Origin: Clostridiales bacterium
Lineage (GTDB): Bacteria; Bacillota; Clostridia; Peptostreptococcales; Anaerovoracaceae
DNA: 64,000 nucleotides
Assembly (NCBI GenBank): GCA_009776955.1
Contig: WRMW01000007.1
Location: 1 to 64,000, forward strand
Direction of reading: 5' to 3'
Shown here: positions 42,250 through 48,602 of the stretch, piece by piece
How the letters are laid out: each line of letters begins with the position of its first letter
Numbering within the stretch: the first letter of the stretch is position 1
Notes under the pieces: model-generated
The model's database searches: none
Told to the model about the DNA's origin: nothing
Seen by the model: only the letters and a program-made list of their open reading frames with translations
Translations under genes and position numbers: made by a program

Positions 42250-43494
42250 TTACCTCACTCCGTATGTAAACACCGTCTCAAACATCGCCTCGATGTTTTC
42301 CGGCTTGGCGTCGTCCACCATCGTAGCGGTGTCCACTATATAGCCGCCGCCGGGCGCACAGGTGTCTATCAGCTTCTTTACGCAATCGGCGGTTTCTTCC
42401 GGGGTCCCGTACGAAAGCGTGAACGACGGCACGTTGCCCATGATGCAGGAATGCCCGCCCAGCACTTTCTTCGCCTTCGCCATGTCTATATACTCGAAGT
42501 TGTAGATGACCTTGCCCTTTGGGACTTCCAGCAGATGCTCGAGCCGCGTATGGTACTTGCCCTCGACATAGACCATCGGGGTCAGCCCCGCCTCGGCCAC
42601 CTCGGTCAGATAGCGTCGCAACGACGGCCAGTAGAACTTGGCAAATTGCTCATCGGACATAAACTCGTCAACGCCCTTATGGAGCCAGAACCATACATAG
42701 GGCGTCGCCTTGCCCGAACAGCCCGCTATGGTGTCCTTTATCGCAAAGTCGGTCACCACGTCGATAAGCGCAAGAAGCTCGTCAGGGCGGTCGTGCATGT
42801 CCATAAGGATGTCGATGGTGCCGCGCATGCTGTCACCGATCATATCGAACGGCGCATACGCAAAGCCCGCATAGAGCGGCGGCATTCCGTACTTCTCTTT
42901 CATATGCGCCTGATACCCGCCGAGATACACAAACCAGTCCATAAGCATCTTGCCCGAGTCCGCAAGGGTCTCAAACGCGCTTATTACCTCTGGATCCGAA
43001 AACGCCGCAAACGCCCCCATATGCCCAAACCACATGGTATTGCGGAAATCGATCTTTGACAGGCCTGAAAGGTTGGAGAAACTACGCGGCAGCCATTTGT
43101 TCATCATAAATTTCGTGATGTCGTGGATGGCCTCGGGATACTCATCCTTTTTCATATACTCCCCCTCCATGTATTGGTACATGATATTGGGGTTGTCGTA
43201 GTGCTTGCCCGGCCAGCGGAACCAGGTCAGCCCGGCACGCTCCATATAGTTCGATGGGAAGAAGAGAATGGGGTCCCAACCCATGTCGGGCTGGTAATGG
43301 TCGTAGAGATGGTCGTAGACCTCCGTGCATTTGGTGTAGTCAGTCATAAGGTCCTGGATGGTCCACTTGTTCATAAAGTATACTGGGAACGCCTGGAACA
43401 CCGGCACTATCGGCACCCTGTCCGGCTCTTTGAGCTGCACGGCGTCCGCAACCCGCTTTATCCTGGCATCATAGATCTCCTGCATATTGGCCAT
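42250..43494 (-). CDS. Uroporphyrinogen decarboxylase (URO-D)-like family protein, possibly a methyltransferase
   Basis: URO-D-like fold; EPDRVPIVPVF N-terminus, GNVPSFTLSYGTPEETADCVKKLIDTCAPGGGYIVDTA; ATG at 43494 after AAAAGGAGG. Confidence 0.75.
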   Translation of the reverse strand: MANMQEIYDARIKRVADAVQLKEPDRVPIVPVFQAFPVYFMNKWTIQDLMTDYTKCTEVYDHLYDHYQPDMGWDPILFFPSNYMERAGLTWFRWPGKHYDNPNIMYQYMEGEYMKKDEYPEAIHDITKFMMNKWLPRSFSNLSGLSKIDFRNTMWFGHMGAFAAFSDPEVISAFETLADSGKMLMDWFVYLGGYQAHMKEKYGMPPLYAGFAYAPFDMIGDSMRGTIDILMDMHDRPDELLALIDVVTDFAIKDTIAGCSGKATPYVWFWLHKGVDEFMSDEQFAKFYWPSLRRYLTEVAEAGLTPMVYVEGKYHTRLEHLLEVPKGKVIYNFEYIDMAKAKKVLGGHSCIMGNVPSFTLSYGTPEETADCVKKLIDTCAPGGGYIVDTATMVDDAKPENIEAMFETVFTYGVR

Positions 43495-43573
43495 AACAAA
43501 CCTCCTTTTAATCAATAATCATTGCTTGCAAACTACATTATATATAACTATATCAAATCGGGGTGTTTTTTCG

Positions 43574-44545
43574 CTACCTGCTTTTTGACCCGATATTGCT
43601 TACAAAGACCGCCCCGACAATAATGGCGCCGAGCACGATGTATTGGTAGAACGAGGCCACGGAAAGAAGGTTCAGGGCGTTCGATATTACCCCTATCAAT
43701 ACGGTCCCCAAAAACACGCCCCATATATTGCCCCTGCCCCCAGACAGCGTGACGCCGCCTATGACCGCCGCCGCTATAGCCTGCATCAACAATGCGTCGC
43801 CCATAACGGAGTTCGCGGAACTCAGGCGCGACAGCATTATCATGGAAGCGATGCCTAGCAGCCCGCCGTTCAGCGCATAGACATATATCTTGTTGCGTTT
43901 GATTTTTATGCCGGAAAGAAACGCCGCCTCTGTGTTGTTGCCTATCGCGTAAGTCCGCCTCCCAAACTTGGTATATTTCAATATGAAATACACTGCGATA
44001 TATACCGCCGCCAGGAAAATCACAGGTATTGGCAGTATGTCGCCTATCCTGTCCCGCCCAAAGGTGAACTCCGAAGAAGCCGGCAAGTTCATGCCGCCTG
44101 TCACAAGCAATGTCAATCCTGTGTACACGCTCATCATGCCTAGCGTCACGATAAACGGCTCGGCCTTGCTCAAAACGATCAACGCCCCGTTGAGCGTCCC
44201 GCACCCTATCGCCACCAGCATCCCGACAAACACCGAAGGACCGACGCCATACCCCGCTCCCATCATTGCGGCGGTCACGCACCCAGACAGGGAAATTATA
44301 TTGCCGAGGGTCAGGTCTATGCCGCCGGATATCATCACTATCGCCGCGCCTGCTCCTGCTATGCCGAGCGCCGTGATCTGCGTGAGTATGTTCATGATGT
44401 TTCTGGTCTGGTAAAAGCGGTCGGTCGCAAAACACATGAAGATAATGATGACTGCCAGAGCGATGCCCAGAAGCAGTATCTGCGACGTCGATTTGTTTTT
44501 CATTATTTTTTTAAGTCCATCAAGGAATCTGCTGCCTAAAGCCAT
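43574..44545 (-). CDS. Ribose-type (CUT2) ABC transporter permease
   Basis: RbsC-like: GIAGAGAAIVMISGGIDLTLGNIISLSG, YAIGNNTEAAFLSGIKIKRNKIYVYALNGGLLGIASMIMLSRLSSA. Confidence 0.92.
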   Translation of the reverse strand: MALGSRFLDGLKKIMKNKSTSQILLLGIALAVIIIFMCFATDRFYQTRNIMNILTQITALGIAGAGAAIVMISGGIDLTLGNIISLSGCVTAAMMGAGYGVGPSVFVGMLVAIGCGTLNGALIVLSKAEPFIVTLGMMSVYTGLTLLVTGGMNLPASSEFTFGRDRIGDILPIPVIFLAAVYIAVYFILKYTKFGRRTYAIGNNTEAAFLSGIKIKRNKIYVYALNGGLLGIASMIMLSRLSSANSVMGDALLMQAIAAAVIGGVTLSGGRGNIWGVFLGTVLIGVISNALNLLSVASFYQYIVLGAIIVGAVFVSNIGSKSR

Positions 44546-44548
44546 CGC

Positions 44549-46045
44549 TCAACCTCCTATTGATGCGGTAAGTATTTTTTCTTCGTTGATGTCTGAGCCC
44601 GACAATTCCGCGACAAGCCTTCTTTCTTTCATAATAAGAACCCTGTCGCTCAGCGCGACCAGCTCAGGCATGTCCGAAGAAATCATTATGATGAATTTCC
44701 CTTCGTGCGCCAGTTCGAGCATAAGCTTGTATACATCCTCTTTTGCGCCTATGTCTATCCCCTTGGTCGGCTCGTCGAATATGACGACTTCGGCGTTTGT
44801 GTGCAGCCATTTTGACAGTACGACCTTTTGTTGGTTGCCGCCGGAGAGGAACCTTATCTCCTGCTCAGGCCCTTGGGTCTTTATCTGGATGCGACCAATA
44901 TAGTCCTCAAGGACTTTGTTTTCTTTCTGCTGACGCAGAAGCATCCCCTTTTCTTTATTGATGATGGCGGACACAAAATTCCAGCCCACGCTATGGTCGA
45001 GGAACATGCCGCTGTGCTGCCTGTCCTCGGTGATAAGGCATATGCCGTTCTTTATTGCGGTATACGGGTCTTTTGAGGTGACGTCCGTGCCGTTTATCAG
45101 AACTTCGCCGCCGTCTGGGGACACGACCCCGAATAGCAGGCTTACAAGCTCCGTTCGCCCAGAGCCGACCATGCCCCCTATGCCCAGTATCTCGCCCCGA
45201 CACATCGTGAACGACGCAGGCTCTATATAATTTTTCTTGTACAGCCCTTTTACTTCCAGCAATCCGTCTTTTAGCTGCACCGCTTCACGTTTGTAGAAAA
45301 GGTCTGCGTCGCGACCGACCATGTCCCTTATCAGTTGCTGTTCGGTAATCTCGTCACGCTCGTAGCAGGCGATTTTCTTTCCGTCACGGATGATGGTCAC
45401 GCGGTCCGCAAGCTCAAACACCTCGTCCAGATGGTGCGATATGTATATGACGCCTATCCCTTTTGCGGCGATTTTCTTTACAAGTTTCAAGAGGGCGGTC
45501 TTTTCCCTCTTGCCGTAGGAGGCCGTCGGCTCGTCGAGTATCAGCACCTTTGCTTCCTGGGCGAGCGAGCGCGCTATCTGCACCGCCTGCCGCTCCGTGA
45601 TGTCGAGCTCGCCAAGCATCCTCGTCGGGTCTATGTCCATTTCCGTTTCGGCAAGCACCTTCTCCGCTTCCTCCACCAATTTTTTATAATTCATAAAGCC
45701 CTTCTTCCCCGCGGCGAAGTCCCCCATAAAAATATTCTCCGCCACGGAGAGGTCGGGCATCAGAAATTGGTTTTGGTAAATGGTCTGCACCCCCATCGCT
45801 TTCAAAACGTCGGGGTTGAAGTTCTTCACCTCTTTGCCGCAGATAAAAACCCTGCCGGAATCAGGCACGTATGCGCCGGACAGTATCTTGATGAACGTCG
45901 ATTTCCCCGCTCCGTTCTCGCCCACCAAGCAATGTATCTCGCCCGCAACAAGGTCGAATGACACACGGTCAAAGACTGTGACGCCGGAAAAGCTTTTGGT
46001 GCAATCCTCTACATGGACTACTATGTCAGAGGCTTTCTTATTCAT
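44549..46045 (-). CDS. Ribose-type ABC transporter ATP-binding protein (two ABC domains)
   Basis: RbsA/MglA-like: GENGAGKSTFIKILSGAY; second domain FLSGGNQQKVVLSKWL, VVIFDEPTKGIDIGAK. Confidence 0.92.
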   Translation of the reverse strand: MNKKASDIVVHVEDCTKSFSGVTVFDRVSFDLVAGEIHCLVGENGAGKSTFIKILSGAYVPDSGRVFICGKEVKNFNPDVLKAMGVQTIYQNQFLMPDLSVAENIFMGDFAAGKKGFMNYKKLVEEAEKVLAETEMDIDPTRMLGELDITERQAVQIARSLAQEAKVLILDEPTASYGKREKTALLKLVKKIAAKGIGVIYISHHLDEVFELADRVTIIRDGKKIACYERDEITEQQLIRDMVGRDADLFYKREAVQLKDGLLEVKGLYKKNYIEPASFTMCRGEILGIGGMVGSGRTELVSLLFGVVSPDGGEVLINGTDVTSKDPYTAIKNGICLITEDRQHSGMFLDHSVGWNFVSAIINKEKGMLLRQQKENKVLEDYIGRIQIKTQGPEQEIRFLSGGNQQKVVLSKWLHTNAEVVIFDEPTKGIDIGAKEDVYKLMLELAHEGKFIIMISSDMPELVALSDRVLIMKERRLVAELSGSDINEEKILTASIGG

Positions 46046-46140
46046 GGTTCGATTATATGGCGGTGGTAAATCCTTGTCTTTTATCACACTACAGAAAGGC
46101 CTTCTTTTGTTTGCCTAAACGACATTTTGGGACTATGCAA

Positions 46141-47298
46141 TCAATGGCCGCAGGTCTTGCGGTATTCTTTCGGCGTCATGTTTGTGTATTTCTTGAACAG
46201 GACGGAGAAGTATTGGGAGTTCGGGATGCCGACGGCCATCGCCACCTGGGATATTTTCTGACTCGGATCCGCAAGCAGCTCCTTGCTTTTTTCGATTCGC
46301 CGCTTGTATGTGTACTCCATTATGGAAGTGTTCATATGGTTTTTGAACAATAGCATAAGGTAGCCGGAGCTCAGATGTACGGCATCCGCGACCATTTTTG
46401 GGGAGATGGGGTTTTCGAGGTTTTCGTTGATAAAGTCTATGGCGTGCTTCAAGTAGACTGCCAAGTTACCATTGTTCTCGATGGCTTTTGAAAGCTCAAA
46501 ACCCTCACCTTCCTCGCTCTCCCGTTTCAGTAGCTCTAGCCGATCCACGGAAATCTCGTCGTAGCCGACCATGTCACGGACAAGCGCCGTCAAGTCAAAC
46601 GATTTCCGCTGCACCACGCATATGCGACGTCCGTCCCTAAGCACCGTGATACGGTCGGAAATCCTGATGGCATCTTCGACTATATGAGTGAAGTACACGA
46701 CGCCTATCCCGTTTTGCGCCATTTCCCTAAGTATCTCAAGTATCTGCTGCTTCTGCCCGTCGGAGAACAACGACGCTATATTGTCGGCAAGCACGATGCC
46801 GGCCTTGTTGGCGTAGACGCGAGCCATTTGAACGACCTGTTTCTCGAACTCCGTCAGGTTGACCGGAAGCATATCAGAGTTTATGGGGACTTTCAGGCGC
46901 TCAAAGATTTCCTCTGCATGGTATTTTAATTTTTTGTAATTCAATATGCCCGCGCGGTTCGCTATATACTCGCCCATGAAGATATTCTCGGCGACCGTCA
47001 GATCCTGCATAAGGTATTGCTCCTCGTACAGCGACTGCATATTGTTTGAACGGGCAAACGACGGGTTGTGGCTTCGCGGCCTTTTGCCGTAAATCTCAAG
47101 ATATCCAGAGTCGATGGAGATGGCGCCCGAAAACACTTGGTGCATTGCGGTCTTGCCTGCGCCTTTTGTCCCCAAAACGGTATGTATCTCACCTTCGTTC
47201 AGGGAAAAGTCCACCGCGTCCAAAGCCTTGGTGTGCCCGAACTGTTTTGAGATGCCTATTGCTTTCAAACAAACCTGTGAATCCGCCATGGTCATCAC
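46141..47298 (-). CDS. Degenerate ABC-ATPase domain fused to a C-terminal AraC-family helix-turn-helix domain
   Basis: N-half parallels RbsA first ABC domain (GTKGAGKTA; QYLMQDLTVAENIFMGEY; IVLADNIASLF; GVVYFTH); C-half AraC HTH (ENLENPISPKMVADAVHLSSGYLMLLFKNHMNTSIMEYTYKRRIEKSKELLADPSQKISQVAMAVGIPNSQYFSVLFKKYTNMTPKEYRK). Confidence 0.9.
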   Translation of the reverse strand: MMTMADSQVCLKAIGISKQFGHTKALDAVDFSLNEGEIHTVLGTKGAGKTAMHQVFSGAISIDSGYLEIYGKRPRSHNPSFARSNNMQSLYEEQYLMQDLTVAENIFMGEYIANRAGILNYKKLKYHAEEIFERLKVPINSDMLPVNLTEFEKQVVQMARVYANKAGIVLADNIASLFSDGQKQQILEILREMAQNGIGVVYFTHIVEDAIRISDRITVLRDGRRICVVQRKSFDLTALVRDMVGYDEISVDRLELLKRESEEGEGFELSKAIENNGNLAVYLKHAIDFINENLENPISPKMVADAVHLSSGYLMLLFKNHMNTSIMEYTYKRRIEKSKELLADPSQKISQVAMAVGIPNSQYFSVLFKKYTNMTPKEYRKTCGH

Positions 47299-47395
47299 CC
47301 CTTATACAAACAATTCTATCCTATACAAAGAGAGACTGCAAACGCAGCCTCTCACAAACAATTATTGTCATTCCCCTAGTTGTCGCCCTACGCTT

Positions 47396-48475
47396 CTATC
47401 TGGAGGCAAAATACTCGTCAACGCGGGATGTCGCCCATACTTTGTCCCATGTGACAAGATTGGGGTCGTTCACGTTGGTGGAGTCGATGATGAATATAGG
47501 CGAGTCATAGGTTTCCGGAACCGCTTCCCCATCGAACCACTTCAATATCTGCACGACCACGTCGCCGCCGACATAAGAGGGGGGATTGGCGCAAGTGGCA
47601 AGCACCTGGCCGTTCCCGATCATCTCGATGCCGGGGTCGGAGCCGTTGAACGTGACGACCTGTATCTGGCCAAGCACACCGTTCTCCTCTAGGACGTTGA
47701 CGACGCCGGCGCACATATCCTCATTGTGGACAAGCACCATATTGTAGTCTAGGTCGGACATCAGCGTATCCTCTGTTATGGAGATGGCTTCCGCACGCAC
47801 CCAGTTCGCCGTCTGGCGGAAGATGACCTCTATGTCGCCACGTCCGATTGTCGCAGCCTCAAAGCCCTGTGAGTGCGGCTCGGCAACGCCTTGCCCAAGC
47901 TGCCCTTGTATTTCCAGCACCCTCAGCTCGCCCGGCACATTGTTGGCGACCCATTGGCCTATCTCGTAACCCATGTCATAGAATGAGTTTCCTATGGTGC
48001 TGGTCGCCTTTGCGGGGCCTTCTGCGGCAACAGAGCTCATCAGAAAGAGCGGGATGCCCGCTTCCTCACATAGCTGGGCGTTTATCTGAGCCGTTTCGCT
48101 GGATACGGAGAACACCGCGATGGCGTCAACGCCTTGGGCGATCAAGTCCTCGACATTTGAAATCTCCTTCTCCGAACTGTACTCCGCCAAAAGCGCGGTG
48201 ACTGTCATGCCCGCATACTCCGCAGCCATCCTTACGCTGTCTGCAAAGCTTTGGTAGTAGAACTCCGGCCCAGGCTGTATGAGGCCCAGGTGGTAGTTGT
48301 ACGTGCCAGGGCCGTCGTGCGTGTTTCCAGCCGGAGCGGGCGCCGCTGGAGCGGGTGCGGGCGCCGGCGTGTCCTCGGCCGGCGCGGACGGCTGCGATGT
48401 GCATGCCGCCAGCATAGATACCAGCAACACCATGGCTGCCAGCACTGCGATTATTTTAGTTCTTTTTGTCAACAT
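47396..48475 (-). CDS. Ribose-type ABC transporter substrate-binding lipoprotein
   Basis: Signal/lipobox MLAAC; Peripla_BP_4-like fold; start ATG at 48475 after AAGGAGGAA. Confidence 0.9.
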   Translation of the reverse strand: MLTKRTKIIAVLAAMVLLVSMLAACTSQPSAPAEDTPAPAPAPAAPAPAGNTHDGPGTYNYHLGLIQPGPEFYYQSFADSVRMAAEYAGMTVTALLAEYSSEKEISNVEDLIAQGVDAIAVFSVSSETAQINAQLCEEAGIPLFLMSSVAAEGPAKATSTIGNSFYDMGYEIGQWVANNVPGELRVLEIQGQLGQGVAEPHSQGFEAATIGRGDIEVIFRQTANWVRAEAISITEDTLMSDLDYNMVLVHNEDMCAGVVNVLEENGVLGQIQVVTFNGSDPGIEMIGNGQVLATCANPPSYVGGDVVVQILKWFDGEAVPETYDSPIFIIDSTNVNDPNLVTWDKVWATSRVDEYFASR

Positions 48476-48584
48476 TGATAGTTCCTCCTTGTTGGTAGAA
48501 TAATATCTTTTGCGTAGGGCAAAATCTTCTATCAAACTGACTTTATCGCATCAAATGTTTGCAACGACGATATTATTCAAGAAC

Positions 48585-48602
48585 GCAAAACCTTGGTTTT
48601 GC
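48585..48602. promoter_or_regulatory. Operator-like inverted repeat GCAAAACC-TT-GGTTTTGC
   Basis: Perfect 8-bp arms with 2-nt spacer, upstream of the binding-protein gene. Confidence 0.5.

Follow-up and report, generated by a model that had tools for sequence, protein, structure and literature searches.

An ABC nucleotide-binding domain joined to an AraC-type DNA-binding domain in a CUT2 transporter operon: a candidate transport-sensing regulator

What could be the role of a protein that is encoded in the middle of a ribose-type transporter operon and joins an ABC ATPase domain to the DNA-binding domain of a transcription regulator? Where transporters are known to signal their activity to promoters, several proteins take part, as with MalK and MalT in E. 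coli, where the ABC ATPase subunit holds the regulator at the membrane when the transporter is idle and thereby silences transcription (PMC10427625). The gene considered here lies in a stretch of 64,000 nucleotides from a Clostridiales bacterium (hereafter the window). A preliminary description saw in its product a nucleotide-binding but probably catalytically impaired paralogue of the transporter ATPase that may dock on the permease or sense the state of the transporter and directly regulate transcription, a one-protein transporter-to-promoter device. In its strongest form, with a hydrolysis-dead copy of the transporter's own first nucleotide-binding domain (NBD1) that sits on the permease, follows the transport cycle and itself controls the operon through its AraC domain, the proposal strikes us as rather doubtful. 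What we tentatively prefer, with confidence a little short of even, is that the fusion is a local regulator of the CUT2 operon that senses via a hydrolysis-dead NBD docked on the permease or RbsA, with its AraC part on the promoter. If this were true, one gene, encoding motor and DNA-binding domain in a single chain, would suffice to test transport sensing, and a route from a dead enzyme copy to a signalling part would come into view.

The gene, its operon and its two domains

The fusion gene is real and occupies 46141..47298, as first described, on the minus strand. Its frame, read from 47298 to 46141, stays open as a single frame over 385 codons with no internal stop. A Shine-Dalgarno sequence, AAGGGG, read directly 8 nt 5' of the ATG at 47289, overlaps the annotated GTG, and the start is therefore probably this ATG, which gives 382 residues. 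Within this one chain Pfam places ABC_tran at residues 26-173 (E 4.4e-15) and HTH_18 at residues 304-381 (E 2.2e-18); HTH_AraC is matched as well (E 7.3e-18). Since HTH_18 scores 66.7 bits against a cut-off of 33.6, the chain ends in the double HTH typical of AraC/XylS regulators, and instead of the two NBDs of a CUT2 ATPase it has a single ABC_tran stretch with HTH_18 in the second half. The ABC half spans 46549..47271 (minus strand; residues ~10-250), and the double HTH 46156..46389 (minus strand). The architecture proposed earlier, an ABC domain followed by an AraC-type double HTH where the second NBD would stand, is thus present in one intact frame. For residues 2-250 the best NCBIfam models are those of the CUT2 ATPases YtfR, XylG, AraG and RbsA, with scores that the lack of a second domain keeps far under the full-length cut-offs. 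GC3 is 0.66 and 0.71 in the two halves and 0.65-0.75 in the neighbouring genes.

Pfam and NCBIfam calls of the neighbours bear out the location inside a ribose-type operon, all of it on the minus strand. The fusion gene lies between the gene of a substrate-binding lipoprotein (SBP; Peripla_BP_4, 47396..48535, whose ATG at 48475 has an AGGAGG) and that of the two-domain RbsA-type ATPase of the CUT2 family (44549..46087). A CUT2 permease (BPD_transp_2, 43574..44545) and a URO-D/MtaA-like protein (42250..43515) follow, the latter being the last gene of the same-strand run. By Pfam, no other regulator is encoded among the genes of this operon. The closest transporter, that of genome G037, has an SBP 47% identical to the one here and an RbsA and a permease that are each 64% identical to their counterparts.

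Three sequence features might be regulatory. A perfect palindrome, GCAAAACC-N2-GGTTTTGC (8-2-8; 48585..48602), precedes the SBP start by 110 nt and has no second exact copy in the window. The 64 kb contain 10 palindromes whose arms measure 8 bp or more, with spacers of at most 6, and by arithmetic the chance of one falling in the ~140-bp gap upstream of the SBP gene is about 0.02, which is mildly unexpected; it may be an operator, to be bound by the fusion protein or by some other regulator. A direct repeat (TTTGTATAg/TTTGTATAa, 19 bp apart; 47302..47329, minus strand) immediately precedes the fusion start and may be an AraC site, as a weak candidate for which chance could also account. The third feature, in the gap that separates the SBP gene from the fusion gene, is a hairpin of 10 bp with TTTG after it (47330..47353, minus strand), presumably an attenuator or the end of the SBP message.

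The HTH of the fusion is intact, being 43-47% identical to the nearest AraC proteins over ~100-115 residues. The closest, at 47%, belongs to a cupin-AraC protein found by a GTDB contig scan in another Clostridia genome (L010:1207-3314), where the gene after cupin-AraC begins with MNNRENVLRALRRNSPESVPFDF, a start that resembles URO-D-type proteins. The fold of the other half was modelled with AlphaFold2 from a three-row alignment, whole-fusion alignments with AraC rows having misplaced the ABC part. Mean pLDDT is 72.9; the model scores well for the greater part of residues 6-245, moderately for 330-385 and poorly for 246-321. The NBD fold itself lies mostly at 75-94, and Foldseek against the PDB matches it with ABC NBDs such as BceA, MalK and PotA. 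The model supports the presence of a folded NBD in the fusion; on docking it is silent.

Descent of the ABC half and the residues it has kept

Where does the ABC half come from? The N-terminal ~250 residues had been likened to the first ABC domain of the adjacent RbsA, with which BLAST aligns residues 17-247 at 36.8% identity, and the motif pairs quoted between the two proteins are all present. Identity is 37-38% to this RbsA and to its G037 orthologue, and the alignment with NBD1 of RbsA/AraG/XylG/MglA-type ATPases extends over residues 8-248. When 18 CUT2 ATPases were divided into their domains and placed in one tree, the ABC half grouped as an NBD1, within a clade of eight that includes this RbsA (support 100/99), and was sister to this RbsA plus the G037 RbsA (93/83; 82/70 in a second tree of NBD1 only). 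No other NBD1 row ends in so long a branch. Placement and branch length together indicate that the ABC half descends from the RbsA lineage of this operon and evolved fast; that it was copied recently from this RbsA alone is less likely (p-AU 0.056). Tree and motifs thus support the idea of a degenerate NBD1 paralogue of this lineage joined to an intact AraC domain.

Which of the functional residues have survived? The P-loop reported earlier, GTKGAGKT, does retain the Walker A GxxGAGK (G43, G46, G48 and K49), and Walker B Asp172 and the H-loop His205 are also kept, so that the Walker A Lys and Walker B Asp of an active ABC ATPase are both in place (K49 and D172). Among columns fixed in the relatives, the fusion has lost the catalytic Glu (E173N), the Q-loop Gln (Q92E), and P174 and T175 (P174I, T175A); an active ABC ATPase needs both the catalytic Glu and the Q-loop Gln, and 18/18 relatives have them. 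The Asn after the Walker B Asp had been recognised from the start, whereas the Gln-to-Glu change at residue 92 is a further loss that had been missed. The signature region does read LTEFEKQ without LSGGQ, but this is not distinctive: the NBD1 of RbsA here already has LDITERQ, its G037 orthologue LDVADRQ, and most CUT2 NBD1s an LSVAQQQ-like sequence, and the missing LSGGQ is, judging by these motifs, inherited in part from RbsA NBD1. The notion of a nucleotide-binding but catalytically impaired paralogue accordingly stands as regards the retained binding residues and the lost Glu, while nucleotide binding itself is a prediction from sequence. RbsA at 44549-46087 has a degenerate NBD1 signature of its own and an NBD2 with LSGGNQQK and a Walker A Lys-to-Arg change; one degenerate ATP site has already been described in RbsA proteins of Bacillus subtilis (PMC11466899).

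Retention adjusted for column conservation was also compared region by region, with circular shifts as the yardstick; the figures are hints only, because the regions, eight in all, were picked by motif once the alignment had been seen. Residues 93-110, after the Q-loop, retain 13/18 against 7.6 expected (nominal 0.016, uncorrected for the eight regions). The Walker B/D-loop region retains 2/13 against 6.1 and the H-loop region 1/9 against 4.7 (circular-shift fractions 0.020 and 0.012, both nominal with eight regions tried). There are hints, then, that the permease-facing side of the NBD was kept above expectation and the catalytic loops below it. In ABC importers, as in MalK, the stretch after the Q-loop meets the coupling helix of the permease, and it is because the retained stretch corresponds to this contact that docking of the fusion on the transporter appears plausible.

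Other genomes and related loci

Does the fusion occur elsewhere? A second ABC_tran-AraC fusion was not found in ~1,200 distinct genomes, which returned RbsA-type ATPases only; they came from overlapping sets (100 relatives, 396 of the order, 352 of the family, 348 of the phylum and 388 of the class), searched with E limits of 1e-40 to 1e-45 that a very diverged fusion could escape. No plasmid or phage record covers 80% of the fusion query, and IMG/VR holds no match to the fusion. The gene is absent from the three genus mates searched (83-86% complete), and six related CUT2 loci that were inspected (G037, G407, G902, G938, G916 and contig C9 of the same genome) contain no fusion; the last four surround the remaining members of the RbsA clade. 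Nor did we find a description of such a fusion in the open-access literature, which does not prove its absence. Two candidates were set aside: a short frame in G1161 runs into the end of its contig, and in the GTDB contig scan the ABC match of L035 is a full RbsA, the remaining matches being HTH-only.

G037 belongs to the same family and another genus. Its SBP, RbsA, permease and URO-D genes follow one another as they do here, except that no fusion separates the first two, and a pair of genes for sugar enzymes, Gfo/Idh and xylose-isomerase-like TIM barrel proteins, precedes the SBP gene. Further upstream of this orthologous operon (L043:7104-9353, contig C51), a 749-aa protein with a LacI HTH carries a C-terminal SBP_bac_1 domain. 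G407 has a LacI regulator and a CUT2 transporter whose RbsA is 47% identical to that of the window. URO-D/MtaA-like proteins recur beside CUT2 transporters; in G407 (L044:4448-6997) two stand in tandem, one of them 82% identical to the 42250-43515 protein.

What the fusion might do

How might such a protein work? Economy favours a local regulator whose sensor is the dead NBD, formed when a duplicated RbsA NBD1 was fused to the DNA-binding C-terminus of an AraC-family protein and replaced the ligand-binding sensor found there as a rule. The NBD would probably still bind ATP without hydrolysing it, and its transporter-facing surface may let the fusion sit on the permease or RbsA, to be held or released according to the transport state. 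The AraC part would then act on the operon promoter, its DNA target and the direction of regulation both being presumed. These thoughts find some support in the two Pfam domains of one intact frame, the descent of the ABC half, the pattern of kept and lost residues, the intact HTH, the same-strand position in the operon, the fitting GC3, the candidate operator palindrome and the MalK-MalT precedent. Against them count the restriction to one genome with no orthologue, the closest transporter (G037) that does without the fusion, the nominal character of the region comparison, a palindrome that may belong to another regulator, and the low confidence of the model in the linker and first AraC helices (246-321).

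Would contact with the transporter be needed at all? The NBD might serve solely as a dimerisation or nucleotide/energy-sensing module, a non-hydrolysing ATP sandwich setting AraC on DNA. Retention of the Walker A Lys, Walker B Asp and H-loop His with loss of the catalytic Glu would suit this, AraC regulators often dimerise via their N-terminal domain, and the direct repeat upstream of the gene has its copies 19 bp apart. A symmetric ATP sandwich, however, needs signature and D-loop, of which the first is the non-canonical LTEFEKQ and the second is eroded, and the repeat may be due to chance, so we consider this reading unlikely. We give little credence to a dead NBD that mainly blocks or tunes the transporter, with the AraC part secondary. 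The retained post-Q-loop region and the gene's place next to RbsA on the same strand would agree with such a competitor subunit, yet CUT2 transporters have one two-domain RbsA per permease dimer and hence no obvious empty seat, and the HTH is the better conserved half. The complex RbsAC2B has been modelled (PMC11466899).

Alternatively, part of a duplicated RbsA might have been joined to a piece of an AraC protein and now be decaying or without function. That its branch exceeds all others in the NBD1 tree, that many invariant NBD residues are lost and that no relative turned up in ~1,200 genomes might be read in this way, but a neutral copy at such divergence should presumably be broken, whereas here 385 codons without stop or frameshift come with a good Shine-Dalgarno sequence, neighbour-like GC3, a conserved HTH and a predicted NBD fold; decay is improbable. 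An assembly chimaera of two loci, which occurrence in a single genome and absence from three genus mates (83-86% complete) might suggest, is very improbable, given a contig-internal gene flanked by same-strand operon genes in the G037 order (SBP, RbsA, permease, URO-D), an in-frame join, even GC3 and an ABC half that copies no RbsA found (38% at most). Decay and chimaera alike lose ground because frame, composition and HTH are intact.

How does the local regulator that we prefer compare with known systems? With RbsA/AraG/XylG/MglA-type CUT2 ATPases it shares an ABC half within their NBD1 clade, and it departs from them in its single NBD, the lost catalytic Glu and Q-loop Gln, and the AraC domain that replaces NBD2. 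Its C-terminal double HTH is that of AraC/XylS regulators (cupin-AraC, YesN-like), in front of which stands an ABC NBD and not a cupin, response-regulator or other sensor domain. The likeness to MalK-MalT lies in the idea of an ABC ATPase subunit coupled to a transcription regulator; there, in contrast, two proteins are involved, of which MalT is a STAND ATPase and MalK works as the ATPase of the transporter itself. There are already regulators into which a transport component has been swapped, the G037 LacI-SBP_bac_1 protein being one, and in the material searched none with an ABC NBD in that place was found. That protein resembles the fusion in joining a transport component to a DNA-binding domain near the same type of transporter, and differs in that the former is a binding protein and the latter LacI.
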